Of a stretch of DNA of 64,000 bases, positions 38,083 through 57,500 are shown piece by piece; the first letter of the stretch is position 1, and every line of letters starts with the position of its first letter. The translations under genes were made by a program, and so were the position numbers. The DNA comes from Yonghaparkia sp. Root332 (GTDB lineage: Bacteria; Actinomycetota; Actinomycetes; Actinomycetales; Microbacteriaceae), in assembly GCF_001425665.1 (NCBI RefSeq), contig NZ_LMCX01000002.1, positions 434,001 through 498,000 on the forward strand, in the 5' to 3' direction. The notes beneath the pieces were generated by a model. The model was given only the letters and a program-made list of their open reading frames with translations. It did not search any database and had not been told where the DNA came from.

Positions 38083-38173
38083 CCGCACTCCTTGCCCTAT
38101 TTCACCGCAGCCTATTGGTGAGCCCAGACTTTGCCACCGATTCGGGGGTGTCGACCGAGCCCGGCATTCGACC

Positions 38174-38179
38174 TACGCT
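38174..38179 (+). promoter_or_regulatory. -10 element upstream of the NERD-helicase gene
   Basis: TACGCT lies 8 nt before the ATG at 38188. A GGGGGTG element (38144-38150) lies 23 bp before it. Confidence 0.5.
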
Positions 38180-38187
38180 CAATTCCA

Positions 38188-39912: not shown

Positions 39913-41033
39913 CTCAACGCCTGCACCTCTTCGACCAGCGCCTCGATCGCTTCAATCAAGGCGGGCACCGCAGCGGGAGCAGTGGCGGCGTCAAAGCTGC
40001 GGGCCGAGATCTTTGAGTTCGCTGTCCGGCCACCGGGAATCGCGCCGATCGCGGCGAGATAGCGTTCAGCGGCTTGGGCGACGCTCGGGGTTCTGGCCAG
40101 CGACGTTCGATCGATGCCCACCGACAGATACTTGAGGCCCTGCCAGCTTGTGGTCTCCGGCAGCCCCCACGCGATCGAGATCGGCAGATTCTGGTCGGGT
40201 GTCTGCATGCGGATGGAGAGCCCCTTCGATCCCCAAGCGAGGGCGAGCCCGAGCGAAATGCAGCCGGCGAGGAAGTCGCGGAACGCATCGCGATACTGGT
40301 CATCATTGATCGAGGCCAAGAAGGCGACTTCGTCGGTCGTCGTCTGCGACCGGCTGGTCGCAGCTGTCCGCCGAGACGGCGATGCGACGACCTGGGCGGC
40401 GTGAGCGGTTAGTTCCGCGCCCGCCAATTGCACAATCTCCACCAAGAAGAAGCGCCCCGATCTCATGGTTGCGTTCATGTACTCAAGGCTCGTCCGCATG
40501 GTCTCGGTGAACCTCTGCGCGGCGACCACGAAGTGGAAATCGCCCGACTGCAGCACATCGGCAAGGCGCTCGAGCAGAGCATCCGTCGCCTCGGAGTCGA
40601 GGGCCCATCCGGCGCGACTGATCGCGTCGCGCAGATCGTGGCTACCGGCGAGGCGCTCGGGCGCGTGCCCGCTGCGCAGGAAGCGCTGCACGACGCCTCG
40701 GTCGAAGTCGTCGACCGACAGCCGCCACAGGTCTGAGCCGTAGTCGATCAGCTGGGCGAGGGCGTGCCTGAAGTCGGGGTTCTGTGGCCCAGTTTTGAGC
40801 TCCACGAGCACCACGTCGCCCGACGAGGCGAGGCACAGCAAGTCGATGGACCCGGAAGCCAAGGAGGTTTCACGCCCAATCACGAGCAGGTCACCATCGA
40901 GCCCCAGGTCGTCAGCGGGAATGAGCTGCGGGTTCATTTTCATGACCTCCTGCAAGTGGTGTTCGCTCGCTGCGGGCGACTCAACGAGATCGAATCGCTC
41001 GCCTGCACGCTCGACCAAAAAGCGACGCGGCAT
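39909..41033 (-). CDS. PD-(D/E)XK nuclease-like protein (DUF91/NucS-like core)
   Basis: A 374-residue protein. Near residue 60, SLASGSIDLLCLASSGDVVL followed by VELKTG is the D-x(n)-E-x-K core typical of NucS- and RecB-like nucleases (Asp in IDLL, Glu and Lys in VELK). NPDFRHALAQLIDYGSDLWR supplies the following helix with its conserved Gln and Tyr. The C-terminal 200 residues hold no recognised domain; ISIAWGLPETTSWQGLKYLS resembles a DUF4268-type region only loosely. The ATG at 41033 follows AAAGGAG. It is convergent with the NERD-helicase and probably part of the same defence cluster. Confidence 0.75.
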   Translation of the reverse strand: MPRRFLVERAGERFDLVESPAASEHHLQEVMKMNPQLIPADDLGLDGDLLVIGRETSLASGSIDLLCLASSGDVVLVELKTGPQNPDFRHALAQLIDYGSDLWRLSVDDFDRGVVQRFLRSGHAPERLAGSHDLRDAISRAGWALDSEATDALLERLADVLQSGDFHFVVAAQRFTETMRTSLEYMNATMRSGRFFLVEIVQLAGAELTAHAAQVVASPSRRTAATSRSQTTTDEVAFLASINDDQYRDAFRDFLAGCISLGLALAWGSKGLSIRMQTPDQNLPISIAWGLPETTSWQGLKYLSVGIDRTSLARTPSVAQAAERYLAAIGAIPGGRTANSKISARSFDAATAPAAVPALIEAIEALVEEVQALS

Positions 41034-41279: not shown

Positions 41280-42347
41280 ATGTTGGGAGCAAGTCAGACC
41301 AGCGAATTTGTGCGAAGGATGGCAGGCGTGGACGCAAGTATGCGCGAACAGGACATGGTCTTTCGGCGTGCGCTCGGCGAGTCACTCGACAGCATCGGTA
41401 AGTCGTACGGCGTCAGCAGAGAACGTGTGCGGCAGATCATCGTTAAGGCGGGCGGCCCGACCGCTCAGGATGCCCACCGGGCGGCGAGAAGCACGAAGTC
41501 TGCCGAAGGGCAGCGTGAGCGAGAAGCGTTTGCGGCCCAGTACCTACCCATCGCGCGCGAGCTCGCGAGCAAAGGCACTTCGCGACGCGATGTGATCGCC
41601 AGGCTGAAGGCCATTGATCCGAGTATTGACGAGGTGATGGCCGGGTTTGTGCTGCGCAAGGCTCGTATCGTGTTTGCGCAGGACTGGGTGGATGACTTCA
41701 TGTCAAACCGGTTGCTCGTGGCAGCGGTCTGGTTCCTGTTCGGTCTCGACTACCAGATCCCCGCCGACCCCTCACTCGCCATCAAGAAGCTTGACCACGC
41801 GCTGATCTCCGAACTCACCGAAGTTCTTGCGAGGCAAGGGGTCCACGAGCTTGAGCGCGCACGCGTTCTCGGCGTCATTGCTGCGGCTCAAAACTTCGCC
41901 ACAGAAAACCCCGGAGTGTCGATTACCGCGGCCCGGTACGGGGTTCTTCGAAAGAAGCAGGTCGTCGCCTGGGGTCTCGAGTCAGCGCGAGGTACCCACT
42001 TTTGGCCGCCTACGCGACAGGCCGCGATGGCACGGTTCGGCGGATGGAGCGAGACCCTGCTGCGGGTGGGGCTGAAGCGATCGGAGTTTGGGCGCTCAAA
42101 GGGGTTTCTCAAGTACACCGCCGATGAGTACCAAAGGGCGGCGATGGACTACGTCGCGTGGGCCGATCGTCGCGATGCAACGCCCTCGGTGGACCGCTAC
42201 AAGGAGTGGCGCCGACTCGAGGCAAATGAGGGACGCGAGCGACCGTCCGGCGCGTCCTTGCGCAACATCTTTGGTTCTTGGTCGAAGGCCATGCGGGCAG
42301 CGCGCGAGAGCGCAGACCATGCCGGTGCGCATGCACTGCAAGAATGA
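41280..42347 (+). CDS. sigma-region-4-like HTH protein with homing-type DNA-binding repeat
   Basis: A 355-residue protein upstream of the five-gene defence operon. Near residue 35, LGESLDSIGKSYGVSRERVR followed by QII is a helix-turn-helix very like sigma-70 region 4. The C-terminal 75 residues (YTADEYQRAAMDYVAWADRR, then TPSVDRYKEWRRLEA and SGASLRNIFGSWSKAMRAA) match the short helical DNA-binding repeats found beside homing endonucleases. No nuclease or kinase motif is visible. The ATG at 41280 or the GTG at 41328 (AAGGA upstream) may be the start. It ends 75 bp before the DUF1156 gene, so it may regulate or belong to that system. Confidence 0.65.
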   Translation: MLGASQTSEFVRRMAGVDASMREQDMVFRRALGESLDSIGKSYGVSRERVRQIIVKAGGPTAQDAHRAARSTKSAEGQREREAFAAQYLPIARELASKGTSRRDVIARLKAIDPSIDEVMAGFVLRKARIVFAQDWVDDFMSNRLLVAAVWFLFGLDYQIPADPSLAIKKLDHALISELTEVLARQGVHELERARVLGVIAAAQNFATENPGVSITAARYGVLRKKQVVAWGLESARGTHFWPPTRQAAMARFGGWSETLLRVGLKRSEFGRSKGFLKYTADEYQRAAMDYVAWADRRDATPSVDRYKEWRRLEANEGRERPSGASLRNIFGSWSKAMRAARESADHAGAHALQE

Positions 42348-42422
42348 AGATTCCGCGGAGATCCGCCTGGTGCGGCCGTGGCGCAGCGTCGACCGAACAA
42401 CCAAAGTGAAGGGCTCCAACGC

Positions 42423-45251
42423 GTGACGAAGCGCAAGCTGATTGAAGTAGCACTGCCGCTCGAAGAGATCAACAAGCAGTCCGCACGCGAGAAGTCCATT
42501 CGCCACGGCCACCCTTCAACCCTGCACCTCTGGTGGGCGCGTCGCCCGCTCGCCACGGCGCGCGCGGTCCTCTTTGCCCAACTCGTGGATGACCCCAGCA
42601 ATCGCGAAGACGAATACCGCGAGGAAGCGGTGCGCAAGGGCGAAGCGGATGCGGACGCCTACGCTGAACGCGCGGTTCAGGCCGAGCGCCAACGACTCTT
42701 TCGGCTGATCGAGCGAATGGTCAACTGGGACAACCTCGGCGACGAGGCGCTGTTCGACGAGGTGCGTGCGGAGATTCTCAAGAGCACGAACGGCAACCCG
42801 CCCGCCATCCTCGACCCGTTTGCCGGCGGCGGCACTATCCCTCTCGAAGCGCAGCGCCTCGGGCTCAAGGCTCATGCGTCTGATTTGAATCCTGTCGCGG
42901 TGCTCATCAACAAAGCGCTGCTCGAAATCCCACCAAAATTCCGCGGCCGACCGCCGGTATTTTCAGGAGCCGCCGAACAAAGAAATGATTGGCCCAACGC
43001 CTCCGGTCTTGCTGAGGATGTCCGCCGTTATGGCTCCTGGGTGCGTGATGAAGCTGAAAAACGGATAGGACATCACTATCCGAAGGCAACATTGGCCGAC
43101 GGTTCGACTGCAAATGTCATCGCCTGGATATGGGCTCGCACGATTACCTGCCCGAATCCGGCCTGCGGAATTGAGATGCCTCTGGTGAGCACTTGGTGGC
43201 TGGGCAAGAAGAAGGGCAAAGAGGCGTACATAGTCCCATCCGTGGTGAGCGGTCGAATCGAGTATGAGATCGGGCATGATACAAAATTCGGTCCAACGAA
43301 AGAAAAGGATGGGACGGTGGGTCGAACTGGTGCCGCTTGCTTGTCTTGTCAAACCGTCGTACCGCTGGAATATGTGCGATCAACAAGTCGAAGTGGTGGC
43401 CTGGGAGCCCAGATGACCGCAGTTGTTGCTGAGGGTTCCCGGACGCGCGTTTACCTCCCGGCTACGGAGCGCCACCGTCATGCCGCGGACGTTTCGAAGC
43501 CTCTTGTACTACCTGCGGGGAGCCTCCCAGACAAGGCATTGTCTTTTCGGGTACAGGCATACGGCATGACCGAGTGGGCTGACCTCTTCACAAATAGGCA
43601 GCTAACCGCTCTGACAAACTTGAGTGACTTGATTATGGAGGCGCGTGGAAAAGTCCTTGCGGAGACGATGGCGGCATCGCATGCTCGAGCCGGGAGCCTG
43701 GAGCATGCGCGTTCGGACTCCGAGTCTTACGCTGATGCGGTCACAACCTACCTCGGGTTCGCTCTCAGCCGGACCCTCAACAAGAGTTCCACGTTGTCCG
43801 GTTGGGACTCCAGCACGAAGGTCGAAGGCGTCCGTGGAGTCTTCGCTCGCCAAGCCTTGCCCATGGTCTGGGACTTCGGGGAGGCGAATCCTTTTGGCAA
43901 CGCAGCAGGCGACTACAAGGAGGATCTAGCCTGGGTCGCGAAGGTCATCGAGAAGTTGCCCGCGAGTGGAATTCACGAGGTCATTCAAGCTGACGCTGCA
44001 AACCGCTCGTACGCGGACGTCGTACTGTCCACCGATCCTCCGTATTATGACAATATCGGCTATTCAGACTTGTCAGACTTCTTTTACGTTTGGCTTAGAA
44101 GGTCATTGCGAACGGTTCATACGGATCTGCTTGGCACAATGCTCGTGCCAAAGGCTGATGAATTGGTCGCAAACCCTTATCGCCATGGCGGAACAGAGGG
44201 GGCGAGAGATTTCTTTGAATCTGGGTTTGAGGAGGTATTCGCACACGCTCGCTCATCTGCATCAGAGATTTACCCGATAACCGTCTACTACGCGTTCAAG
44301 CAGTCGGAGTCCCTTAACGGTGAAGAGTCCTCCCGTGGGTGGGAGACGATTCTTGGATCCATGGTCCGCGCAGGCTGGTGCATAACAGCGACCTGGCCAA
44401 TGCGCTCGGAACTTGGTAACCGAATGATCGCGTCGGGGACCAACGCTCTTGCCTCATCCATCGTTCTTGCCTTGCGCCCGAGGTCAAAAGACGCGCCGAT
44501 TACAGATCGAAGAGGTTTTCTTTCCGAGCTAAAGTCCTCGATGGCTGGGTCGCTTCGTGAGCTGTACCAGGGAACAGTGGCGCCGGTGGATATGGCGCAA
44601 GCAGCAATCGGGCCCGGAATGGCAATCTTCTCGAAGTACATAAAGGTCGTGCAGCCGGATGGCTCAGCGATGACTGTGCATGATGCGCTCGTCCAGATCA
44701 ACTCGGTACTCGATTCGGTCCGTCGTGAGCAAGAGGGTGATTTTGACTCGGACACCCGGTGGTGTGTCACGTGGTTCGAACAGCATGGATTCAGCGCTGG
44801 ATCTTTTGGCGATGCGCATACACTCGCGACTGCGAAAGCGACTACGCTCGACGGCCTCGCGCGAAGCGGGATCTTGAGCACTGGTGGGGGCAAAGTCAAG
44901 CTGTTCGATCTTGCCGAGCTCAGAGCCGGATACGACCCGCGAGCGGACGACCGCGTGTCGCTCTGGGAAGTTGTAATGCACCTTGCCAAGTCCGTCACCG
45001 AGTTTGGGCTCGCGGATGCTGGACGCATTTTCGCGGCAGCAGTTGAGCGCGGATTCGACATGACGGAAGGCAAAGCCCTAGCTGACCTGTTGTTCGTCAT
45101 CTCAGAGAAGCGGGGCAGCACCAAGACGGCGATCGTCTTCAACCAGTTGGCATCCGCTTGGTCGGAGATCATGGCGGCATCTCACGATGCTGTTGCCATC
45201 GCGCCGGCAATTTCTGAAGCGACACTCGACTTCGATTCGCTGGAGGATTGA
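42423..45251 (+). CDS. DUF1156 DNA amino-methyltransferase
   Basis: A 942-residue protein. KRKLIEVALPLEEINKQSAR and SIRHGHPSTLHLWWARRPLA at the N-terminus are the DUF1156 signature. NPPAILDPFAGGGTIPLEAQ (D131) is the AdoMet-binding motif I, and VVLSTDPPYYDNIGYSDLSD (D538) is motif IV, DPPY, which marks N6-adenine or N4-cytosine methylases. Between them two Cys pairs (CPNPACG and CLSC) form a zinc ribbon. Such proteins accompany DUF499 in anti-phage loci and presumably mark self DNA. GTG at 42423 is preferred because it gives the conserved start. The middle (about 42900-44700) is clearly lower in GC than either end. DUF499 follows after 3 bp. Confidence 0.88.
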   Translation: MTKRKLIEVALPLEEINKQSAREKSIRHGHPSTLHLWWARRPLATARAVLFAQLVDDPSNREDEYREEAVRKGEADADAYAERAVQAERQRLFRLIERMVNWDNLGDEALFDEVRAEILKSTNGNPPAILDPFAGGGTIPLEAQRLGLKAHASDLNPVAVLINKALLEIPPKFRGRPPVFSGAAEQRNDWPNASGLAEDVRRYGSWVRDEAEKRIGHHYPKATLADGSTANVIAWIWARTITCPNPACGIEMPLVSTWWLGKKKGKEAYIVPSVVSGRIEYEIGHDTKFGPTKEKDGTVGRTGAACLSCQTVVPLEYVRSTSRSGGLGAQMTAVVAEGSRTRVYLPATERHRHAADVSKPLVLPAGSLPDKALSFRVQAYGMTEWADLFTNRQLTALTNLSDLIMEARGKVLAETMAASHARAGSLEHARSDSESYADAVTTYLGFALSRTLNKSSTLSGWDSSTKVEGVRGVFARQALPMVWDFGEANPFGNAAGDYKEDLAWVAKVIEKLPASGIHEVIQADAANRSYADVVLSTDPPYYDNIGYSDLSDFFYVWLRRSLRTVHTDLLGTMLVPKADELVANPYRHGGTEGARDFFESGFEEVFAHARSSASEIYPITVYYAFKQSESLNGEESSRGWETILGSMVRAGWCITATWPMRSELGNRMIASGTNALASSIVLALRPRSKDAPITDRRGFLSELKSSMAGSLRELYQGTVAPVDMAQAAIGPGMAIFSKYIKVVQPDGSAMTVHDALVQINSVLDSVRREQEGDFDSDTRWCVTWFEQHGFSAGSFGDAHTLATAKATTLDGLARSGILSTGGGKVKLFDLAELRAGYDPRADDRVSLWEVVMHLAKSVTEFGLADAGRIFAAAVERGFDMTEGKALADLLFVISEKRGSTKTAIVFNQLASAWSEIMAASHDAVAIAPAISEATLDFDSLED

Positions 45252-45254
45252 TTC

Positions 45255-48200
45255 ATGGCTGACTTGTCGAATAAAGATCGCGTGCGACGAGCCCTTGACG
45301 ATGTGGTCGCACCGGCACTTCGCGGATTCATCGAGTCGGTGCTCGGTCCTGGTGATGAATGGACTGAGATCGTCTCGGCGCGGTTTCCGGGCAACGTGTA
45401 CGAGCCCTACGATCCGCAGGCACAGTTCTACTTGATCTCGCTTCCGTGGCCAGGCGGGCGGCGCAATCCGTTCTGGGACCAGCTGAGCAAAACGGCGACG
45501 AAAGCGTGGACGGCCGAACTGCTCGACGTTCGCAATAAGGCGAACCACAATAGGCCGTGGCAGCCCAAGGAGGCCGAGCGCGCCCTCGACACCATGGTGC
45601 TGTTACTGCGCGAGATTAATGACCCGCGAGCGGCCGATGTGGTCGAGGCGGAGCGTCGTGAGATCGCGAAGGCGAGCCAGCTTGCGGAGGTAAGGAAAGA
45701 CACGAAGCGCGTTGCGGCTATGCCCACCCTCGACGCGGGAGACGTTCCGGCATGGCGAGACGTGCTCGAACCGCATCCCGATGTCGCGGCTGGAAACTTC
45801 GTCAGCGCAGAGTTCGCCGCCGACTTGTACCAGGTCGCACGCGGGCAGGCAGGCGCTGACTACGCCGACCCGATCGAGTTCTTCAGGCGTACCTACCTGA
45901 CCGATGGTATCCAGACTCTGCTCAAGCATGTTGCTCGACGTATTTCAGGCGACACGAATGCCGAGCCGATCGTTAACCTCCAGACGACCTTCGGCGGAGG
46001 CAAGACCCACGCCATGCTGGCCGCGTGGCACCTATTTGCCGGTCGACCACTGAGCGAGTTCCCGCAGGCCGTCCAAGACCTTCTCGGCGACCTGGTCTCC
46101 GCTGAAACTTTCACGACCCCGGTGCGGCGGGTTGCTCTCGTCGGTAACGAGCTTTCGCCGGGCCAGACGTGGGTGCATAGCGACACCGAGATTCACACAC
46201 TTTGGGGCGAATTGGCCTGGCAACTCGGGGGAGCCGAGGGCTACGCGATCATTGCGGACTCTGACCGCAACGGGACAAATCCGGGACACGCTCTTCGCAC
46301 TCTGCTCGAGACCTACGGACCGGCGGTCATTCTTATTGATGAGTGGGTGGCGTACGCCCGTGGACTGGTGGGCAAGGACGGACTTCCAGGAGGTGACTTC
46401 GGCGAACAACGAAGCTTTGCGCAAGCGCTAAACGCAGCCGTCAAGGCGACCCCGGGCACGGTGTTGTTGGTCTCGTTGCCGGCATCGGAAATTCGGGCCG
46501 ACGATGACACGGTCTCGGCGCACGACATCGAGATCGGCGGCCCACGAGGTCGCGAAGCCCTCGACATGCTCGATCACACCATTACGCGCGACGCTTACCG
46601 TTGGGCGCCGGCGAAGCCGATCGAGTCTTTTGAGATCGTTAAGCGGCGACTCTTCCGGGAGCCGGATGCTGCGGCCCTCACTACGATCGAACAAGTTGCC
46701 CGGCGGTTCACGAAGTTCTACACCGATCACAAGGGTGAACTGCCGGGTGAGTCTCTTGACTTCAGCTATGAAGACCGCATCAGGGCGGCGTATCCGATTC
46801 ACCCGGCGCTCTTCGATCGACTGTATGGCGACTGGTCAACCCTCGAGCGTTTTCAGCGCACGCGTGGAGTGCTGAGACTCATGAGTCACGTCGTTCATTC
46901 GCTGTGGGCGACCGGAGACAAAGCGCCGCTTATCATGCCCGGGTCGATGCCACTTGACTTCGACGCTGTGCGAGACGAGATCGCCGGCTATCTGCCGGAT
47001 GAATGGCAGCCGATCATCGCGAAAGACATCGACGGTGAACTGGCAACGTCGGTCTACATCGACAATGACAAGCCGCTCTTTGGTGCGCGAGCGCTGACAC
47101 GACGGATCGCGCGCGCAATTTTCATGGGGTCGGCGGCAACACTGACCACCGAGCACAAGGGCATCGAGCGCAAACAAGTGTTCCTGAGCGTCGCGCTGCC
47201 GGGTGACACGATCGGCAACTTTGGGTCGGCGCTCAGTCAACTATCCGAGCGTGCGACTCACCTTTACGCAGACTCTGACCGGTATTGGTTCGACCGCACG
47301 CCCTCGCTCAACCGCACAGTCACTGAGCGAGCTGAGTCCTATCAGCAGTCGGACGTGTGGGCAGCAGTTATTGAGCGTCTCCGTCAGGAGCCGAAATCGA
47401 CGCCGGAGATACCTGAAGTCGTCATCGCGCCGGAGGGCTCTCTCGATATCGATGAGAAAGACCGTGTGCGACTGGTCATTGCCCACCCCCGCTACACACA
47501 CGAGCAGAAGGGCAAAGACACCACGGGTCGCTTGTGGGCCCACGAAGTGACCTCGAAGCGAGGCGCCGGTGGCCGCGTCAACGCGAACACGGTCGTGACG
47601 TTGGCCGCAGACAGCGAGCGCCTGAAGGAGCTCGAACAGTCAGTGAGGCACTACCTTGCGTGGACCTACATCTACGACTCTCGGTCGACACTGAACCTGA
47701 CGGAGAGCCAGTCGAATGAGGCGAAGGCCAAGATCGACCAGTTCAATGGCGTCGTGAGGCAGCGCATCCGCGAGACCTGGATCTGGGCATTGCACGCCCA
47801 GCAGGGTGCAGGTGAATCGCAGTGGGCCATCAGCCAGCTGAAGGTTGACGGCGCCACAGATTCGATCGCTCGCCATGCTGCCGAGAAGCTGAGGCGCCAC
47901 GATATCGTGCAGGTGCAGCACTCGGCCACTTCGATCGGAATCGCGCTGAGCAACCACCTTCGCGCGAAGTGGAACACGGGTCGAGTGAGCGTGGGCGAGT
48001 TGTGGGAGTACCACGTGCGGTACCCCTACCTGGCTCGACTTCGAGACAAAGCAGTGCTTACGGACGCCGTTGCCTCGGTAATGACCGATATGGCGTGGGA
48101 CGCTCATGGGTTTGCGCTCGCTGGTGGATATGACGAAGCAAGCGGAGACTTCCGTGACCTCCTCATTCCCATTGAGGATCAGGCGCCAGCGATCAACGAC

Positions 48201-48584
48201 CAGACTCTTCTCGTGTCCCCGGCATTGGCTCGCGCCCAAAGAGAACGTGAACGCGGCGAAACTCCAGAGCCTGATGTCACACCGGGGCCCGCTGGGAGAG
48301 ATGTTCCGAAGCCACCTAAGCCCAATCCTGTTCCGTCCGCGATACGCAACACCACCTATAGCGCGCGAGTGGATCTCAAACCCGCAGATGATCTGGGTGC
48401 GCAGCTGAAGTTGATCGTCGACGAGGTGCTTGTTCACCTACAGCACGCAACCCCGGATAGCTTCGAAGTCCGAATCGAGATTGACGCGTCAAAGCGTGGC
48501 GGTTTTGGTGAAGCCGAGATTCGGACGATCAAGGAGAACGGTTCGACGCTTGGTTTCAAGGGTGACGGGTTCACGGGGACATGA
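45255..48584 (+). CDS. HEPN-DUF499 ATPase
   Basis: A 1109-residue protein. Residues 1-~130 look like a Swt1-type HEPN domain (NKDRVRRALDDVVAPALRGF), with the catalytic R-x4-H motif as RNKANH at R93-H98, the signature of HEPN ribonucleases. The DUF499 P-loop ATPase follows, with Walker A NLQTTFGGGKTHAMLAAWHL (K250) and AVILIDEWVAYARGLVGKDG as Walker B region. The last ~70 residues are a separate small domain after a Pro-rich linker (PGPAGRDVPKPPKPNPVPSA). DUF499 proteins are paired with DUF1156 in defence islands. ATG at 45255 lies 3 bp after the DUF1156 stop; the 3' end overlaps the next gene by 4 bp. Confidence 0.85.
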   Translation: MADLSNKDRVRRALDDVVAPALRGFIESVLGPGDEWTEIVSARFPGNVYEPYDPQAQFYLISLPWPGGRRNPFWDQLSKTATKAWTAELLDVRNKANHNRPWQPKEAERALDTMVLLLREINDPRAADVVEAERREIAKASQLAEVRKDTKRVAAMPTLDAGDVPAWRDVLEPHPDVAAGNFVSAEFAADLYQVARGQAGADYADPIEFFRRTYLTDGIQTLLKHVARRISGDTNAEPIVNLQTTFGGGKTHAMLAAWHLFAGRPLSEFPQAVQDLLGDLVSAETFTTPVRRVALVGNELSPGQTWVHSDTEIHTLWGELAWQLGGAEGYAIIADSDRNGTNPGHALRTLLETYGPAVILIDEWVAYARGLVGKDGLPGGDFGEQRSFAQALNAAVKATPGTVLLVSLPASEIRADDDTVSAHDIEIGGPRGREALDMLDHTITRDAYRWAPAKPIESFEIVKRRLFREPDAAALTTIEQVARRFTKFYTDHKGELPGESLDFSYEDRIRAAYPIHPALFDRLYGDWSTLERFQRTRGVLRLMSHVVHSLWATGDKAPLIMPGSMPLDFDAVRDEIAGYLPDEWQPIIAKDIDGELATSVYIDNDKPLFGARALTRRIARAIFMGSAATLTTEHKGIERKQVFLSVALPGDTIGNFGSALSQLSERATHLYADSDRYWFDRTPSLNRTVTERAESYQQSDVWAAVIERLRQEPKSTPEIPEVVIAPEGSLDIDEKDRVRLVIAHPRYTHEQKGKDTTGRLWAHEVTSKRGAGGRVNANTVVTLAADSERLKELEQSVRHYLAWTYIYDSRSTLNLTESQSNEAKAKIDQFNGVVRQRIRETWIWALHAQQGAGESQWAISQLKVDGATDSIARHAAEKLRRHDIVQVQHSATSIGIALSNHLRAKWNTGRVSVGELWEYHVRYPYLARLRDKAVLTDAVASVMTDMAWDAHGFALAGGYDEASGDFRDLLIPIEDQAPAINDQTLLVSPALARAQRERERGETPEPDVTPGPAGRDVPKPPKPNPVPSAIRNTTYSARVDLKPADDLGAQLKLIVDEVLVHLQHATPDSFEVRIEIDASKRGGFGEAEIRTIKENGSTLGFKGDGFTGT

Positions 48585-50128
48585 TGGGAATGCCGGAGCC
48601 GCGACTTCAGGGCTCAAAGACTGTCGCCCCCGATGAGTCGATCGTCCACGCCGTAGGGAGGAGTCATTCCTTCGAGAGCGCGGTAGCGGACCTCGTCGAC
48701 AACAGCGTCGACGCTGGCGCCCGCAACGTCCTGATCCGGTTCATGCGATCCGACAGCGTCGTCATCGGACTCCGTGTTATCGACAACGGCAGTGGCATGG
48801 ACTCCGCAACCCTTGATTCCGCAATGCAATACGCGAGGACGCGTGAATACGGTGCCGGTGACCTTGGTCACTTTGGCATCGGACTGAAGGCGGCCAGCCT
48901 GAGTCAGGCAGATACCCTGCGTGTGTATTCCTCCGCTGCCGGCGCTGTTCCCGCTGGCCGGCAGATCGACCGCATCAGTCCGACAACGGTGCACACGATC
49001 GACACGGAGGCCGTGGTTGACGCACTGCGCGGGGCGAAAGGGGGGTTCTCGACCGCCACTGGAACCATCGTTGAATGGTCTGCGCCCCGCTCGTTCCTAG
49101 TTGATGCATCGATGTCAGATCGAGAGATCTGGTTCAGCAGTACGAGCCGCAAGTTGATCACGCACCTGGGGATGACATTCCATCGGATGATCGCCAATGG
49201 GTCCGTCACGCTCACGATCGATGAGTGGGATCTAGAGCTGGAAGATGGTGGCTTTCCCATCGAGGTTCTCGCGGTCAACCCATTCGGCTACGAGATCGTG
49301 GGGGGAGCAGGCTTCCCCGAACAGTTCACTTTCACGCTCGACGGGAAATCCCGCATTGTCGACCTCCACGTCTGGCCCGCCGCTCAGGCGACGTTGCCTG
49401 GATACGTTCTTGCGGGGAGGGGCGCTGAACACCAAGGCGTTTTCGTATACCGACGAGATCGACTCCTGTCTACAGGCGACTGGCAGGGGCTTGTTCATCC
49501 CGACGTGAAGTACCGCTTCGCGCGAGTCTCGCTGGACCTTAGTGCGGACCTCGAGCAGCACGTGACGATCAATCCCGAGAAGAGCGGCGTCGAGTTTGAT
49601 TCCGAGCTTCGACAAGCACTGCTGAGCGCTACGGGGCCAAACAGCCTTACATTCCAGGACTTCCTCAGTCTCGCGGCGAGCGAGTATCGGGAGTCAAAGA
49701 CCCACGCACTTCAACCAACGCGTCTTGTCAAGCCAGACCGTGGGTTCTCTGCGGGACTCCAAGCGACCTTTGCCGAGATCGTTGAGTCATTCGGCGAGGC
49801 AGCTCAGTTCATCGACGGCGACGAAGTGGACGTGCGCTGGCGTGCAATGACCAGCGACGACCTCTTGCACTTCGATTTCAACACCCGAACGATCTGGCTG
49901 AACACCCGCTACCGGCATGTGTTGAACGGCGGACTCGGTTCCGAGGACAACGATGACGCACCTCTCCTGAAGTCCCTGTTGCTTCTTGTCTACGGAGCGC
50001 ACTTCACGGGTGCGCGCCCAGGCCCGAAAGAACGAGCCGACCAACGTGTGTGGCTCCGACTGCTCACGGCAGCCGCTCATTCCGAGGAACGTCGCTATCG
50101 AGAGCGAACGAAAGGACACACTGAGTGA
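48581..50128 (+). CDS. MORC/MutL-like GHKL ATPase
   Basis: A 515-residue ATPase of the GHKL (gyrase, Hsp90, histidine kinase, MutL) fold. FESAVADLVDNSVDAGARNV contains the catalytic Glu and N41, VIDNGSGMDSATLDSAMQYA contains D68-N-G-S-G, and GHFGIGLKAASLSQADTLRV is the ATP-lid glycine motif. After the ATPase core, VFVYRRDRLLSTGDWQGLV marks the transducer domain. Prokaryotic proteins of this type were described together with DUF4420 and Z1 proteins as restriction-like systems related to eukaryotic MORC ATPases. ATP-driven clamp closure on DNA is the likely action. Overlaps of 4 bp on both sides show translational coupling. Confidence 0.88.
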   Translation: MMGMPEPRLQGSKTVAPDESIVHAVGRSHSFESAVADLVDNSVDAGARNVLIRFMRSDSVVIGLRVIDNGSGMDSATLDSAMQYARTREYGAGDLGHFGIGLKAASLSQADTLRVYSSAAGAVPAGRQIDRISPTTVHTIDTEAVVDALRGAKGGFSTATGTIVEWSAPRSFLVDASMSDREIWFSSTSRKLITHLGMTFHRMIANGSVTLTIDEWDLELEDGGFPIEVLAVNPFGYEIVGGAGFPEQFTFTLDGKSRIVDLHVWPAAQATLPGYVLAGRGAEHQGVFVYRRDRLLSTGDWQGLVHPDVKYRFARVSLDLSADLEQHVTINPEKSGVEFDSELRQALLSATGPNSLTFQDFLSLAASEYRESKTHALQPTRLVKPDRGFSAGLQATFAEIVESFGEAAQFIDGDEVDVRWRAMTSDDLLHFDFNTRTIWLNTRYRHVLNGGLGSEDNDDAPLLKSLLLLVYGAHFTGARPGPKERADQRVWLRLLTAAAHSEERRYRERTKGHTE

Positions 50129-51111
50129 CCATGAATGAGGCAAGCGCGCGACTGAGCCCGGAAGACATCGAAGAACTCTTCAAGGCCCCGATCCCGCGTG
50201 CGAGGCGACGAATCGCGGCTGAGCCTGAGACCTACCTGATCGTGGTGCCAGGGACGGACCAATTGACCCTCCAGAGTCGGATGATGACGGCGGTCGAGCC
50301 CGACGTCACGGCGATGAGGCACATGGACTACCAAGCAGTGACGGATTCGAGCGGCGTGCAGTGGCACGAGTTGACTATTCGCGCGGGCGAAGACCGCTTC
50401 GCCGCGTACCAGGTTCTTGCTGTCGTCACGGAGTTGCTCCGAAGTGGAGTGAAGTTCCACGACGCAGTTCCGGTCGCTGTCGGAGCTCTTCGCGAGCTAC
50501 TTGCTCGCCGAGCCCGCTTGTCTGAGGAACAACAAGTCGGCCTAATGGGTGAGTTGCTCGTGCTAGAGCATGGTCTCGCGGTGAACCCTAACGAAACTCT
50601 CGCTGCATGGTTGGGGATGGATCAAGAAGAGCACGATTTCGTCTTCGAGGACTTCGACGTCGAGGTGAAGTCAACGCGGAGTGAGGATCGCGTGCACATG
50701 ATCGGCTCGCTCAAGCAGTTGTCGGCGGCGCCAGGCCGGCCGCTCTACTTGCTCTCCATTCAGCTGACGGGCGCGGGCGCTGCACACGAGGGTCGATCTC
50801 TCGCGGACATTATCGGAGCCCTTCGATCTGCCACTCCGGAGAAGTGGCATCAAGGCATCGATGAGAAGCTCAAGCGCGCCGGCTGGCACGACGAAGACGC
50901 AGACCTGTACCCGACCCGCTGGCTGTATCGGACGAAGCCTCGGGCCTACCTCGTTGACTCCAGCTTCCCGGCGTTGACCCCGTCGACCGTGGCAGACAAC
51001 GTCCCAAGCCCGCAGTTGATCGTCAGTGTCCGCTACCAGGTCAACGTCTCTGGTTTGTCGAGCACTGCGGTTGGCCAGCCAGTTCAGGATCTCGTGGAGG
51101 TCGCCGAGTGA
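50125..51111 (+). CDS. DUF4420 PD-(D/E)XK family protein
   Basis: A 328-residue protein. QQVGLMGELLVLEHGLAV holds the first conserved Glu. EEHDFVFEDFDVEVKSTRSE provides the Asp and the E180-x-K182 pair of a PD-(D/E)XK core, giving the E...D...ExK order of DUF4420 (PF14390-type) proteins. MIGSLKQLSAAPGRPLYLLS supplies the Gln-containing helix after the core. This makes it the likely DNA-cutting component of the GHKL/Z1 block. GTG at 50125 (AAAGGA upstream) overlaps the ATPase stop by 4 bp, and its own stop overlaps the Z1 start by 4 bp. An ATG at 50131 is an alternative start. Confidence 0.85.
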   Translation: MTMNEASARLSPEDIEELFKAPIPRARRRIAAEPETYLIVVPGTDQLTLQSRMMTAVEPDVTAMRHMDYQAVTDSSGVQWHELTIRAGEDRFAAYQVLAVVTELLRSGVKFHDAVPVAVGALRELLARRARLSEEQQVGLMGELLVLEHGLAVNPNETLAAWLGMDQEEHDFVFEDFDVEVKSTRSEDRVHMIGSLKQLSAAPGRPLYLLSIQLTGAGAAHEGRSLADIIGALRSATPEKWHQGIDEKLKRAGWHDEDADLYPTRWLYRTKPRAYLVDSSFPALTPSTVADNVPSPQLIVSVRYQVNVSGLSSTAVGQPVQDLVEVAE

Positions 51112-54100
51112 GCTCTGAGCTCATCGCCGTCGCAATCCGCGCGGCCATAGAGGGAATGTCGTCGATCGGACCTCGCAATCTCGTAGATGAAGTGAACCGC
51201 AACCTGGAAGACCACGACATTTCAGTTGATGAGGCTGTTGTGGTGCCGGCGGTCACCCAGGTTGGTCAGGCCGCGCAAACTGCGTTCTGGATCGCACTCA
51301 CGGCTTGGGATCAGGAGCTGGACGCCAAGTGGACTGCGGGGACTCTCCAGGGATCGCTCGAGAGGCGTGCGCGAGTCCACGAACGGCTTGGACTCTCTGC
51401 TTCCGCCCGTCAGGCTGTCGACGCAGAGTTTCCGGTTGAGAGCTTCAGTGACGGAATCGTCGATGCGAACTGGGAGCCGTGGTACACCACGGCCCGACAG
51501 AGTGCCCATGATTTCTATTGGACGCACTATCGGAACGTACTGATCAAGAACCGCTTCGATAAGACCGCAATCAACGGGCTCGACGTGATGACCGACAAGA
51601 TCATCGGCCGACTCGCAGACCCCACATCTGAGGTTCCTTATCAGAGCAAGGGTTTGGTCGTCGGCTATGTGCAGAGCGGCAAGACGGCGAACTTTAGCGG
51701 AGTAATTGCCAAAGCCATCGACGCTGGCTACCGGTTGATCATTGTTCTTACCGGCACGTATGACAACCTGCGCACGCAGACGCAACGTCGTCTCGACAAG
51801 GAACTCGTGGGTTGGGAGAACATCGTCGGTGGACTACCGCTCGACAACCCAAAGCTCGCCCAACAGATCGACTACATCAGCTCAAACGACAACGAATGGA
51901 AGGAAGGGAAGTTCTCCAAGCTGGGAGTGAACCCAGTGAACGTTCCGGGTGTACCAGCGATCAACCGGCTCACGACATCGCTCACTGACTACAAGTTGCT
52001 CGGTGTCATCAACCGGAATGTACTTGACTTCCAGGTTGAGAAGTCGGTCAAACATAGGCCGCTGTGGGACGAAAGGAACTTGTACGACTCTGCCGTGCGA
52101 CTGGCCGTCGTCAAGAAGAACTCCGCCGTCCTGAAGAAACTCAACGCCGATCTTGAAGCGCTCCACATTGACCTGAGCGAGATACCCGCGCTCATCCTGG
52201 ACGACGAGTCTGACCTCGCCTCTATCAATACGAAACGCCCGGGCAAGCGAACCAAAGACGAGGAGAAACAGGAAGCGGAACGTACCGCCGTCAACGGCGA
52301 GATCGTGCAACTTCTGAAGGCGATGCCGCGGGCTCAATATTTGGGGTACACGGCGACACCTGCGGCCAACGTGTTCGTGAACCCCGACATTGAGGAAGAC
52401 ATTTTTCCGAAGGATTTCGTCTTCTCGCTCGATCCATCCGGTGAGTACATGGGTGGCGCGGCGTTTCATGACCTCGAAGCAGACTCGACGCTTGACAAGG
52501 CGGATCCTGCTGTTTCCAATGAAGCCGCCTATGCGAGAAGCCTTGGCTTAGACCCTCAACGCGATGAGGATCATGAACTCGCTGACGCGTTGGACGCCTG
52601 GGTACTCACCGGAGGAATCAAGCTTTGGCGCCAGGCCACCTCTGATTTCCGCTTCCGTCACCACACGATGCTTGTTCATGAGTCGGTGCGGACGGAAGAA
52701 CACAAGGCGTTGGCTGCTCGCATTGACAAGCTGTGGGGTGAGGCGGGCTACAAGACCGCGGCCGGAAAGCAGCGCATCAAGAAGAAGTGGGAAGAAGACT
52801 TCCTCCCGACCTGGCAGTCGCGACGCCACGGCGACTTCGCGGACTTGCCAATGCCCGAATCCTTTCAGGAGCTCGTTCCGTATCTTGGCGCTGCAGTTGA
52901 TCGCATGGAGCGCAATAGGGAAGCCAACGTTGTCTCACCGGTCGTCATCGTCAACGGGGATAAGGACTCTGACTATGGGAAGTTGAACTTCCAGTCTGAA
53001 GAGACCTGGCGCGTCCTGGTCGGTGGAGCGAAGCTCAGCCGAGGATTCACGATCGAGGATCTGACCATTTCCTACTTCAGGAGGAAGTCGGAGTCGGCAG
53101 ACACACTCATGCAGATGGGTCGATGGTTCGGCTACCGACCTGGTTATCGGGACCTAGTACGCCTCTACATCGACCGATATGTGGTCGATAAGAAGGGCAA
53201 GGTCTTTGACCTGTACAAGGCCTTCGAGGGGAGCCTGGAAGATGAGCTCATTCTTCGCCGTCAGCTCCGACGGTTTGAGGGTGTCGACGAGCACGGAAAG
53301 CCCAAGATCACTCCTCGACAAGTTCCAGCACTGATTTTCCAGGCGGTGCCTTGGCTTCGCCCGGTTGCCGCAAATAAGCGCCACAACGCCGTGCTGAAGG
53401 AAATTGGGGAGGGAGGAGTGCCTATCGAGAAGACCTGGTACCCACCTCGCTCGTCAAAGGCGAATAACCAGCGTCTCTCCATGGTCTCGGCTCTCTTGCA
53501 GGCGCCGGCACATCGGATCAACTTTGTGAGCCCGGAAGGCCTGCCAGTCTGGCCCGCGAACTGCTGGGTCGTCGATGCCGCGAAGACCGTCGAGCTACTA
53601 GAGGGCTTCACCATGCCAGATGGCTATGGCATCGAAGAGCACACGGCCTTCATGAGGCTCCTGATCTCTGAAGAGAGATTGACGGAGTTCGTTGTGATGA
53701 TTCCCGAGACACAGGGTGCTGCGATTAGAACCTTGGGCGATCTGCGCCTACCGATCCGGTCAATCACTCGACGACTTGACCGACCCGCATTCTCCGGAAA
53801 GCTCACGCGAGCCGAGGGTCCGTTCAAGGCGATCGCCGGCCATCCAGAGTTCGGCGACTTGCCTGAGTCGCAGATCCTCCGAGGTGACGGTACTCGTGGC
53901 GTCCTCGCACTGTTCTTCGCCTATGACCCGGAAGATCAATCGAAGGTGTCTTCCGCTAGGGGCATGCCCAAGGGCCCCCAGGAAACGCTGCCGCAAAACC
54001 TATCTCAGGAAGACGTGGCGACGGTCTTCAGCTTCACAGTTCCGTATGCGGCTGCTCCTGAGCCGCGGCTTGTCTGGACCTGGAGGGTGAAGGGGAAAGC

Positions 54101-54134
54101 GGCAACCGTCGAAGCGGATTCGGCGAAGGTCTAG
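51108..54134 (+). CDS. Z1-domain helicase-like protein
   Basis: A 1008-residue protein. The helicase core contains Walker A KGLVVGYVQSGKTANFSGVI (K192), Walker B IPALILDDESDLASINTKRP (D365), motif III LGYTATPAANVFVNPD, and the Z1 signature GGAKLSRGFTIEDLTISYFR followed by TLMQMGRWFGYRPGYRDLVR with the motif VI Arg. Z1 proteins are superfamily 2 ATPases that occur beside MORC-like ATPases and DUF4420 nucleases in restriction-like operons. It is the last gene of the coupled operon, starting at GTG 51108. Its TAG stop is immediately followed by the open remains of a DUF2130 gene, so there is no terminator or intergenic region. Confidence 0.9.
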   Translation: MSSELIAVAIRAAIEGMSSIGPRNLVDEVNRNLEDHDISVDEAVVVPAVTQVGQAAQTAFWIALTAWDQELDAKWTAGTLQGSLERRARVHERLGLSASARQAVDAEFPVESFSDGIVDANWEPWYTTARQSAHDFYWTHYRNVLIKNRFDKTAINGLDVMTDKIIGRLADPTSEVPYQSKGLVVGYVQSGKTANFSGVIAKAIDAGYRLIIVLTGTYDNLRTQTQRRLDKELVGWENIVGGLPLDNPKLAQQIDYISSNDNEWKEGKFSKLGVNPVNVPGVPAINRLTTSLTDYKLLGVINRNVLDFQVEKSVKHRPLWDERNLYDSAVRLAVVKKNSAVLKKLNADLEALHIDLSEIPALILDDESDLASINTKRPGKRTKDEEKQEAERTAVNGEIVQLLKAMPRAQYLGYTATPAANVFVNPDIEEDIFPKDFVFSLDPSGEYMGGAAFHDLEADSTLDKADPAVSNEAAYARSLGLDPQRDEDHELADALDAWVLTGGIKLWRQATSDFRFRHHTMLVHESVRTEEHKALAARIDKLWGEAGYKTAAGKQRIKKKWEEDFLPTWQSRRHGDFADLPMPESFQELVPYLGAAVDRMERNREANVVSPVVIVNGDKDSDYGKLNFQSEETWRVLVGGAKLSRGFTIEDLTISYFRRKSESADTLMQMGRWFGYRPGYRDLVRLYIDRYVVDKKGKVFDLYKAFEGSLEDELILRRQLRRFEGVDEHGKPKITPRQVPALIFQAVPWLRPVAANKRHNAVLKEIGEGGVPIEKTWYPPRSSKANNQRLSMVSALLQAPAHRINFVSPEGLPVWPANCWVVDAAKTVELLEGFTMPDGYGIEEHTAFMRLLISEERLTEFVVMIPETQGAAIRTLGDLRLPIRSITRRLDRPAFSGKLTRAEGPFKAIAGHPEFGDLPESQILRGDGTRGVLALFFAYDPEDQSKVSSARGMPKGPQETLPQNLSQEDVATVFSFTVPYAAAPEPRLVWTWRVKGKAATVEADSAKV

Positions 54135-54491
54135 GCCCGGTTCGTTCAATTCGATCGAGAGATCATCACGGTGCTGCACAACGCCGCCCTCAGCTCGCTG
54201 CACTACAAGCGCGAACTCGAACTGGTGAGAGCGCAAAAGGTCGACATCACCAACTTCGAGAACGACCTCGACGGGTTCAAGTCGGAAATCGGCGAGAGCT
54301 ACGAGTTGGCGTCGCGCCGCTTCGGCGAGGCCATGACCGAGATCGACAAGGCGATCGAGCGGTGGCAGAAAGTTAGGGACGCGCTGCTCGGGTCAGAGCG
54401 CAACCGGCGATTGGAGAACGACAAAGCGCAGGATGTGACCATCAAGAAGTCGACGCGTGGCAACCCAACGATGGCATCCAACGCACGCTGA
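54135..54491 (+). pseudogene. 3' fragment of a DUF2130 family gene
   Basis: An open reading starting directly after the Z1 stop encodes [20 protein letters not shown], then [20 protein letters not shown] and, near the end, [19 protein letters not shown] plus NPTMASNAR. This is the C-terminal part of DUF2130 proteins, which normally are over 400 residues with a long coiled coil before it. Only about 118 codons remain, there is no ribosome-binding site, and the only early start codon is the GTG at 54171. It is best read as a gene cut off by the insertion or rearrangement that placed the defence operon here. A short GGAGCC/GGCTCC hairpin lies at 54513-54526. Confidence 0.7.
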
Positions 54492-54546
54492 GACGTGGTC
54501 ATCCGTGGTGCCGGAGCCGAGGCTCCACGCCGAGCCAAAGGAAGTT

Positions 54547-57500
54547 TCACTCCTCCCCGGAGATCTCCTCTTCCACCACGAACCCTCGGATTCGGTGGAG
54601 GGTCTGAATCGCTTCTTTCACCGTCGACAGAGTGAACTGTGTCGGCAGGTTCCCCCACGGCTGCCCTTCGCCAATCCATGAAATCGTCCAACGGTGAGCG
54701 GAAACGTACGGTCCGTCCCGGAAGTCGCTGAAGGTGACCAGCCAGGGGCGCCGCTGATAGCGAGCAGGGTCCCACTCATCACTCTCGAGCTGTCCGAGTG
54801 CTTCTGCTACCTCGCAGACTCGTTCCCAGGCAGCCTCCGTGCTCTCGTGGTCGAAGTAGGCGAACCCTCGATGCGCCTGGCCGAGGAACGCAAAGCGCCC
54901 AATCGCCAGTCGAAGGTTGACTGAGTAGCTGTTCATGCCATGGCCGCTGTGGGTGACGGCGAACTGATCGCATAACAGGCCCATCAAGTGTGAGAAGCGC
55001 CCAGGGTAATAGTCATGGGCCGGCAGCGGTTCGGGACGCGTCGCCCAGAACCACGAGTCGTAGCGGCGAAGCCCGCGGGTGATGACCACTGGCATAGAGG
55101 GTCTCCGCAAGCCTTCGTATCGAAGTTCGGAAGACATGTCGTGCGCTGCATCCTCGCAAAGCGGCCCACATCCGGCGCCGCGCACGGCGCGCTCTCGTAG
55201 GCGAACAGGCCGATCCTCGTCGACATCCGGCGCATCACGCTCGCGCGCAGTATCGGAGACGATTCGGCAGGTGTGATCGCGCAGAAGGTGAACCGTTAAG
55301 GCATCCGTTGAGCAGGCGGCAACGAGAATGCGTCCCACTGGGTCCCGCATCACGCAGCGGGGGGAGCAGTGCTCATGGTTGCGCAGCTCCTGGTTCTCGC
55401 TCGTGGCCGTCACCAAAGTCCACCAGTCCACCAAGTGCCCGATGTGATCCTGGCGCTCATTCAGGAGTTCTAGCGCGCTGATCGCCCGCGACAGGTGCGG
55501 GAGTCGTGTCAGGGCGGAGTTGAGAAGCCGCAAGGCTTCGGCGATGGTGAGGGGTTTGTCCTCCGCGAGTGCTTCTGGGTCGAATTGCCGACACCCGCCC
55601 CCGTCATCGGCGTCAGGTGGACCGTCGTAGAACTGGCGCTCCAGAACCGCGATGATCTCGTCGGCGGACAGTCCCAAGTCGGTCGCGACCGTAGCGATCG
55701 CATCCCTTGCCTCCTGAGTGAAGAAGTCGCTGTCGTCGACGTCATTGCTGGGGAGCGTAGAGTCGCCCATCGACCTTCCGGAGTCATCTTCCTGCGATGA
55801 CGGAGTAGGGGGCTGTGGCGGCGATGGCTGGATGAGCACATCTGGTGGTTGCAGCACCGTCAAGTGGCGGAGCACTGCTTCTCGAACCGCATTCGAGCCG
55901 CCGAACGCGATCGGCGTCTCCCACTCATGGCCGTAGATCGAGACGAATATTTCGAGCACCTCGCGAGCGACGCGGTGACCCGTCCACGACGACTCGAGCG
56001 TCAGCACCCAATTGGCTCGGCTATCTGCCCCCGCCTGCGTCCACCCCAGAAGGTCGAGCCCTCGTAGTGTCTCGGCGCTCGACCAGTCGGGACCGCGACC
56101 GTGCCCGCCCACTTCGAGGTGGTGTGTGCCGTCGTTCTCGACGAGCCCTTGAACATACGGGGCGGGCCCCGGGTCGAAGCCCGTGTGTCGCGGGTAGGTG
56201 TTCATCTGCCACAACCCGCCACTGCGGGCGCACTCACTTGCGGCCGCGATCGCGTCCGCAAGTGGAAGCCACTCCGGCCCGAGCAAGGGGTTCTCGAGGA
56301 TCGCATTGCGCGCGTGCTCAGGCTCGTCTCGATGCGGCAGTGGTGTGATCTCGTCGACGATCGCGGCCGTCAGGCCGAGAACGCCCGCGAAACGGATGGC
56401 GTCCGATTCGGCGGCGGCTGCGCATCCGAATCCACGATCTCCGAGGTCGTCACGGCCGCTGAGCCGGTAGTGCTTGAGACTCTGGGTCTCCGCTTCTCGC
56501 GCCTCAACCGCGGGCGTCTTTTCGCCGTCCGCACTTATCGAGCCCTGGCGTTCGTTGATCGGTGCGATCCGCGCGGCCCCGACGGGGTCGCGCCGTGTCG
56601 TGCCATCGAGCAAGTCAACAGCCCACGTGCCGTCGCGACCGAGGTGAATGCTCTCGACGTCGGCTCGGCAGACGGAAGACGCGCCGGGTTCGCGGTCGAG
56701 TGCGTCTGCGGCCTTCAGCTCGGTCATGAGCTCGTTCCACGCCCAACCCGGGTACTTCGCGGCGACGTGTTCGGTGTGCAAGCCATTCTTGACCGGGATG
56801 ATGTGCGCGAAAACAAGCAGCTCATTGATCTCGGTTCGCGTGCGGAACAGGTCGAAGTGCGCTTCGCTTGCTCCTCCGCGGGAGTCGCGTCGGACGTTGT
56901 CATCTTCCGTCGCCGACCCCGCGACCGACTCATATCCGAGAACCACCTGGACAAGCTCGTGGCGAAGTTCTGGGTCCGCGTCGTTCTCCCAGGTGCTGTC
57001 TGCGCGCATGGTGCCCAGTGCCGCCAACGTCCCGGCGGCTGCGAGGGCGCTGTTGAATGCCGCTTCGATGACAGCGCCCCGAGCATCCGGCACCTCATGC
57101 CCCACGCGCAACATGCGGCTGCGAACGTAGTTGTCTCGCCACTCGTGAGCGAGTGACTCAAGTGAGGCCGCGATCTGCGGTGGGCAAGCGCGTCGCCAAG
57201 TGTTCGACCGTGGAATGCGCGCCAGCTTCTCGATGATGTCGTTGGGTAGTCGCGCGAGTCGCCCGATCGCACGAGCAGCATCGAGGACGACGGGGTCAGA
57301 CGAAGCCGCCAACGCGGCAGACGTGCGCACGACCGTGCCATCGATTGCCTCGCACAGCGCGGCAGCGCGCAAGGCGAGGGAGAGCTCAATATCCGCACCG
57401 CCGGCAACAGGCTGCTCCACGTTCTCGGAAGTGATGACGAAAGCCCAGCCATCTCCGCCCCCGGCGCCCCAGGTTTTTCCGGAGAGATCGATCTCGCCGC

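Follow-up and report, generated by a model that had tools for sequence, protein, structure and literature searches.

How does an operon come to carry the methylase and ATPase genes of one defence system next to what look like the effector genes of another? The question is raised by a five-gene set at 42423-54134 of the stretch that we analysed (the "window": 64,000 nucleotides of Yonghaparkia sp. Root332, contig NZ_LMCX01000002.1, positions 434,001 to 498,000 of the forward strand). Open reading frame (ORF) calls agree with an earlier note, made from the sequence alone, in placing here five tightly coupled genes in the order A-B-C-D-E, all on the + strand, with one 3-bp gap followed by three 4-bp overlaps (A-B +3, B-C -4, C-D -4 and D-E -4 bp). 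A (42423-45251) encodes an HmaB-like DUF1156 amino-methyltransferase; B (45255-48584) an HmaC-like protein, a Swt1-type HEPN domain fused to a DUF499 AAA+ ATPase; C (48581-50128) a MORC-type GHKL-S5 ATPase; D (50125-51111) a DUF4420 protein and putative PD-(D/E)XK nuclease; and E (51108-54134) a Z1-domain superfamily 2 (SF2) helicase/translocase. A could also start at a GTG at 42378, which is open too; in that longer form the match to HmaB begins at residue 17, corresponding to residue 2 if A starts at 42423. With some room for doubt, we think it probable that the operon is a restriction-like anti-phage system in which MORC, Z1 and DUF4420 proteins have replaced the SNF2 helicase-nuclease that usually goes with an Hma methylase and HEPN-DUF499 ATPase.

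Two known halves in one operon

Pfam finds DUF1156 in A (E 4e-27), Swt1-HEPN (E 2e-11) and DUF499 (E 2e-24) in B, HATPase_c_3 in C (E 7e-23), DUF4420 in D (E 1e-36) and Z1 in E (E 5e-48). In PADLOC, A matches HmaB at 1048 bits, near full-length, and B matches HmaC at 803 bits, near full-length apart from its HEPN part; the matches of C to MzaB (79 bits), D to MzaD (51 bits) and E to MzaC (210 bits) are distant only.

The window thus has the methylase and HEPN-DUF499 pair, in the same order, of the Hma or Type-1 BREX-Related (BR; BREX, bacteriophage exclusion) systems (PMC8565338; PMC12839542). The two differ in that the SNF2 helicase-nuclease HmaA is found there, whereas a MORC ATPase, a DUF4420 protein and a Z1 helicase stand instead in the window operon. 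PMC12839542 describes the helicase of all BR systems as Swi2/Snf2-family, and its main text, as distinct from its supplements, holds none of the terms MORC, MutL, GHKL, DUF4420, AIPR or "Z1 helicase."

The second half has relatives of its own. The window has in common with the MORC-Z1-restriction endonuclease (RE)-fold operons a GHKL-S5 ATPase, a helicase with the Z1 motif and a neighbour that has the RE fold there and is a DUF4420 protein here (PMC2292703), with a putative defence system of Z1, PD-(D/E)XK and cytosine methylase a nuclease-like neighbour and a Z1 helicase (PMC9523054), and with a corynebacterial island of Z1, DUF4420 and a C5-cytosine methylase (C5-methylase) the first two of these (PMC5379612); it differs from all of them in that its modification half is DUF1156 plus DUF499. 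C, E and D are also distant homologues of MzaB, MzaC and MzaD of the MZA system (mzaABCDE), to which A and B would be extra, and among the window proteins scanned MzaA was not matched above cut-off and MzaE not at all. Membership of MZA was rejected on the NCBIfam scores, which were 88.7 against a cut-off of 850 bits for MzaB, 264.5 against 1500 for MzaC and 80.9 against 420 for MzaD. The earlier note's view that two described kinds of system, Hma/Type-1 BR and a MORC-Z1-DUF4420 restriction-like block, meet in one operon therefore holds: both halves are known, and it is their joined set that is new as a variant. No description of it was found in open PMC texts, a search outside which most subscription papers lie.

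Recurrence, the missing HmaA and module exchange

The A-B-C-D-E order is present in at least 17 distinct genomes, the window's included ("hybrids" hereafter), with protein identities of 33-84%, and the named hybrids belong to seven actinobacterial families (Microbacteriaceae, Promicromonosporaceae, Gordoniaceae, Nocardiaceae, Micromonosporaceae, Actinomycetaceae and Intrasporangiaceae). A search with B through 396 genomes of the order gave 28 matches at E 1e-20, its own included; neighbourhoods were taken from 20 of the 27 other matching genomes, the remaining seven matching only the C-terminal part of B, and two of the 20 had the full order while 18 had A and B only. Scanning genome contigs with a three-row alignment of C gave at least 80 loci, many of them with C-D-E or C-E and no A-B; nine of the 80 had the full order among the matches listed (one of the nine lies in a genome that is also among the two from the B search). 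Of the 12 matches to C at E 1e-40 in 398 family genomes, four were not hybrids and eight were, the window and one counted above being among the eight; among 396 genomes of the phylum the window's own genome alone matched, and the nine other same-genus genomes listed gave no match to C at E 1e-40. The joined operon is widespread yet rare, and because it recurs in several families it looks like a genuine variant and not like an accidental one.

The closest relative of the window operon, in genome G1017 (locus L159), has identities of 72% (A), 84% (B), 75% (C), 72% (D) and 72% (E) and the same gene gaps; the highest identity between any two hybrid B proteins is 86.1%. Measured from the in-frame start closest to the preceding stop, the junction gaps of the 16 hybrids whose C is intact all fall in the range from -20 to +18 bp, and their B-C junctions in that from -4 to +5 bp. 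Plasmid records match B (134) and C (42), and no plasmid carriage of the joined set was found, no accession being common to the 60 listed B matches (of 134) and the 42 C matches; on viral contigs C has weak matches in 11 loci, at 25-44% identity and with an E of 2e-25 at best.

What the hybrids do not carry is HmaA, an SNF2-family helicase that as a rule has a nuclease at its C-terminus; the earlier note overlooked this absence. Ordinary Hma loci have an SNF2 helicase upstream of A, with a NOV_C domain in the one tested. When the 18 loci with A and B only were searched by tblastn with three HmaA-type proteins, 12 gave strong matches (three of them the query loci), four partial or weak ones and two none, both of the last being 5-kb contigs, and all eight plasmid A-B loci chosen from the 134 records are annotated with a "helicase-related protein." Beside the hybrid operons, in contrast, HmaA was found neither in 11 stretches searched with the three queries nor in the other six searched with one; these stretches extend 2.1-4.6 kb upstream of A, and the window's further. 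When the 17 hybrid genomes were searched with one HmaA protein through all of their available sequence, nothing full-length was found; the single partial helicase match covers 199 of 1200 residues (73 bits, in genome G399), and both control genomes were positive, one being the query's own. Since HmaA is found in ordinary loci but not in hybrids, C-D-E substitutes for it, and it is the Hma half that is short of a component, its helicase-nuclease.

The trees (all midpoint-rooted, for drawing only) show which gene defines the set. B of the hybrids forms one clade in a 28-row tree (11 of 11, support 99/96, with long branches for L049 and L050) and again, amid ordinary Hma proteins, in a quick 41-row tree (17 of 17; Shimodaira-Hasegawa-like approximate likelihood ratio test 100, no bootstrap); L048 (685 aa) was left out of both and L050 out of the larger, and L032 was omitted because it duplicates the genome of L053. 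The methylases differ: in the A tree (27 rows, two of the original 29 being too short to keep) the hybrids are not one clade and need three changes, at least two of them forced, so that methylases were exchanged with ordinary systems. In the C tree, which like the E tree includes 20 chosen non-hybrid rows, 10 of 11 hybrids form one clade (95/89). Distances among the 11 hybrids correlate for all ten gene pairs (Spearman 0.61-0.88; for each, none of 1000 shuffles was as high). By these trees B is what defines a hybrid, with methylase and effector exchanged around it: one DUF499 lineage took up a new effector, and methylases, and the effector in at least one member, were swapped later. The joining is no chance insertion here, as 17 genomes, the monophyly of B in the trees made and the tight junctions indicate; chance adjacency is rejected on recurrence and phylogeny.

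Predicted mechanism and rival readings

The motifs of the five proteins are largely intact. A keeps DPFAGGG and DPPY in all 11 hybrids checked, which we take to be the signature of an amino-methylase (N6-adenine or N4-cytosine), and a zinc finger, sought as a simple CxxC...CxxC pattern, was found in none of the 11. HmaB has been called a 5-methylcytosine methylase in one paper (PMC8565338), and an HmaB-type methylase an N6 enzyme in another (PMC12839542). In B the HEPN Rx4H, Walker A and Walker B motifs are each present in 11 of 11 hybrids (and in 15, 17 and 18 of the 18 loci with A-B alone), while the 11 hybrid-specific positions are scattered and outline no clear interface. C has the GHKL G2 box in 11 of 11, its S5 domain in the window protein (GVFVYRRDRLL) fits the MORC motif G-h-x-h-h-p-x-x-R-h-l (PMC2292703), G286, Y290, R291, R294 and L295 are invariant in 24 of 24 sequences, and a model of it (predicted local distance difference test, pLDDT, 82.5) has SMCHD1, MORC, Hsp90 and MutL modules among its best Foldseek matches. 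E143, D171, E180 and K182 of D (E-D-ExK) are invariant in 18 of 18. Of the 11 hybrids checked, all carry the helicase motifs SGKT, DDE(A/S)D and TATP in E and eight the published Z1 motif, the other three differing by one residue; in the window the motif is intact (DThhQXuRhFG), and this SF2 helicase adjoins the E-D-ExK protein D as in the MORC-Z1-RE-fold operons.

The steps that we infer, defence itself included, would run as follows. A would methylate host sites and so mark self; B, as a BrxC-like DNA-scanning ATPase, would load on unmodified foreign DNA and recruit C, which would close on the DNA and loop it; E would translocate or unwind the DNA and D would cut it, C-D-E being an effector like those of restriction loci associated with C5-methylase and Vsr; and the HEPN domain of B might cleave RNA as a last resort. 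The individual roles have precedents, DUF499 having been proposed as a BrxC-like scanning or looping ATPase and HEPN as a last-resort RNase (PMC12839542; PMC3710099), and MORC proteins as DNA-looping ATPases that link recognition to cleavage (PMC2292703).

Several results weigh against this scheme. A and B score far under the cut-offs of the NCBIfam "anti-phage-associated" equivalogs (121 against 1000 bits for DUF1156, 161 against 1200 for DUF499), which places them in the Hma branch and not in the branch of that name. The G1 box of C is altered in two hybrids (L057 and L061, DNASGM), and in a third, L165, the C gene (L165:8963-11585) is interrupted by about 1.1 kb. The model of D (pLDDT 90.7) had no PDB fold match at E 0.001 or better, and when solved structures were searched by sequence an alignment of D found none, nor did A, B or E. 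In the C tree one hybrid, L064, pairs with the non-hybrid L067 (100/100), which implies two or more exchanges or joinings of C-D-E; the E tree, a quick one, takes three changes and does not place the window, and the correlation of gene-pair distances owes part to shared descent. Lastly, since 15 of the 17 hybrid genomes encode a C5-methylase, it is ambiguous which mark the effector reads.

This last count also bears on the earlier note, which held that the second block had lost its own methylase and uses that of the first. The C5-methylase family PF00145 has no match in the window genome (99.99% complete) or in that of G1017, and for this lineage the loss stands; it fails for hybrids generally, since 10 of 10 and five of six other hybrid genomes searched have a match, and in 12 of the 17 a C5-methylase lies no more than 6 kb from the operon (confirmed in L054). 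Only a C5-methylase fragment lies nearby in L057, and none was found in the stretch around the operon in L058, L159, L160 and the window. Joining thus did not require loss of the C5-methylase, and the account of a lost methylase is not supported in the form that the earlier note gave it. The cytosine methylase is a core gene of the Z1 system of PMC9523054, which sets that system apart from the window genome but not from most hybrids. The loss of the C5-methylase, and of Vsr (found in the examined stretch of eight of 17 hybrids), was probably secondary, in the lineage of the window and G1017. Two further amino-methylases are encoded on another contig of the window genome, so A is the sole methylase of the operon but not of the cell.

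The same data lend something to another reading, in which the C5-methylase/Vsr/MORC/DUF4420/Z1 system works by itself and A-B would be a further layer upon it, for modification or anti-counter-defence; the window version, having lost its C5-methylase, would then be a partly reduced relic. Besides the frequent C5-methylase and Vsr genes, it is favoured by locus L164, which has C5, Vsr, C, D and E without A-B, and by L166-L168, which have C5, GHKL, D, E and Vsr genes without A-B-C; such loci look as if they had received A-B or A-B-C by insertion. We nevertheless consider it unlikely, because the C5-free form is common to two genera, its genes are intact, and a C5 gene was found nowhere in either C5-free genome. 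Between the window and G1017, moreover, third codon positions of A to E differ by 58-64% and second positions by 8-22%, so that each gene is under purifying selection.

A less probable alternative still is that an Hma remnant short of its helicase and a restriction block of the MORC-Z1 kind are separate systems that merely lie side by side in defence islands. A-B does occur without C-D-E in 18 of the 20 loci of the order, as C-D-E or C-E does without A-B in many, and the neighbours of the window operon look like a defence island; 17 genomes, however, share the arrangement with tight junctions, their B proteins are monophyletic, and none of them yielded a full HmaA. That the HEPN RNase is the main effector, acting by abortive infection while the MORC, Z1 and DUF4420 proteins only sense or open DNA, we find very improbable: Rx4H is kept in every hybrid checked and HEPN has been proposed as the suicide effector of Type-1 BR systems (PMC12839542), but D and E keep their nuclease and ATPase motifs, and ordinary Hma loci, with another effector, have the HEPN domain too.

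Surroundings and significance

Upstream of A by 75 bp, and outside the operon as the earlier note drew it, lies p1 (41280-42347, + strand), which encodes a 355-aa protein with a sigma-70 region-4-like helix-turn-helix and HNH_repeat matches (Pfam; homing-endonuclease-associated repeats). G1017 has a homologue (about 60% identity) in the same position, with a gap of 66 bp; p1 is thus present in both C5-methylase-free hybrids, and in four of 396 family genomes. It is probably a regulator and an optional member of the operon. Homologues of p1 also lie at L183:5909-6958 and L184:6649-8184. One of them (37% identity) adjoins a BREX-like block (DEAD helicase, BrxC/D, PglZ and DUF6079), where a 423-aa ORF lying upstream resembles the N-terminus of the window protein at 54547-58149; the region of the other contains a TniQ gene. 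Four hybrids (L052, L056, L161 and L169) have a GHKL-sigma-70 fusion upstream of the operon, with relatives in the A-B-C-free loci L166 and L168. The GHKL gene of L166-L168 matches this fusion, that of L167 without a detectable sigma part. The fusion tested, in L052 (1055-3628, - strand, 858 aa), is MzaB- and MzaA-like, and such fusions stand beside C5-methylase/DUF4420/Z1 loci.

G+C is 0.58-0.62 across 42-56 kb and 0.66-0.75 in each 2-kb step left of 40 kb. A C-terminal remnant of a DUF2130 gene follows E (54171-54494, + strand; PF09903 positions 157-252 of 255), possibly the scar of an insertion or rearrangement, and together with the low G+C it fits an acquired island. Beyond it a gene (54547-58149, - strand) converges on the operon; its 1200-aa protein is matched by nothing in Pfam, PADLOC, NCBIfam or PHROGs. 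The genes for an HNH_2 protein, a NERD-UvrD helicase and a NucS_C-like protein at 37186-41033 are probable defence-island neighbours; at a threshold of E 1e-100 the UvrD/nuclease gene of the right flank was matched in none of 12 further genomes of the genus. Scanned for promoters, the + strand gave no match and the - strand a single one, under the shuffle mean of 2.7, and the 13 terminator-like sites are close to the shuffle mean of 10.7.

Some related loci vary the theme. In one hybrid genome a sixth gene overlaps E by 4 bp (L032:875-2536, - strand, and L053:15581-17242, + strand) and encodes a GHKL domain fused to Hypoth_Ymh, a HEPN family known to be fused to paraMORCs (PMC3710099). In the best plasmid match to C and E, Arthrobacter p2MP, the position of A-B is taken by a cytosine methylase and a 1096-aa protein; this protein has a SACS domain and lies between the C5-methylase and C-D-E (L051:7681-10971). 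Five loci of Rhodococcus, Rhodococcoides and Gordonia (L055, L059, L060, L062 and L084) encode a protein of about 690 aa with related MORC and Z1 proteins, and no DUF4420 match was found in them; in L055, where they were tested, the 690-aa protein has a weak sigma-70 region-4 match and a ParA-like ATPase is present.

If the exchange of effector that we favour is right, a whole effector has been replaced in a defence system that kept its recognition ATPase, which would make DUF499/BrxC-type ATPases a hub that joins marking to destruction. Tentatively, and with slightly more doubt than conviction, we would take DUF499 for a general adaptor whose methylase is exchangeable and whose effector is replaceable wholesale, and the operon for a further BREX-related class (MORC/Z1/DUF4420) in which a DUF1156 adenine or N4-cytosine mark may license a MORC clamp that is tied to 5-methylcytosine in its relatives. 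Most members keep a second, C5-methylase and two genomes of two genera do without it, which would provide a natural test of the mark read by a prokaryotic MORC; that question bears on the role of MORC proteins in restriction and, by the argument made in PMC2292703, on eukaryotic chromatin.

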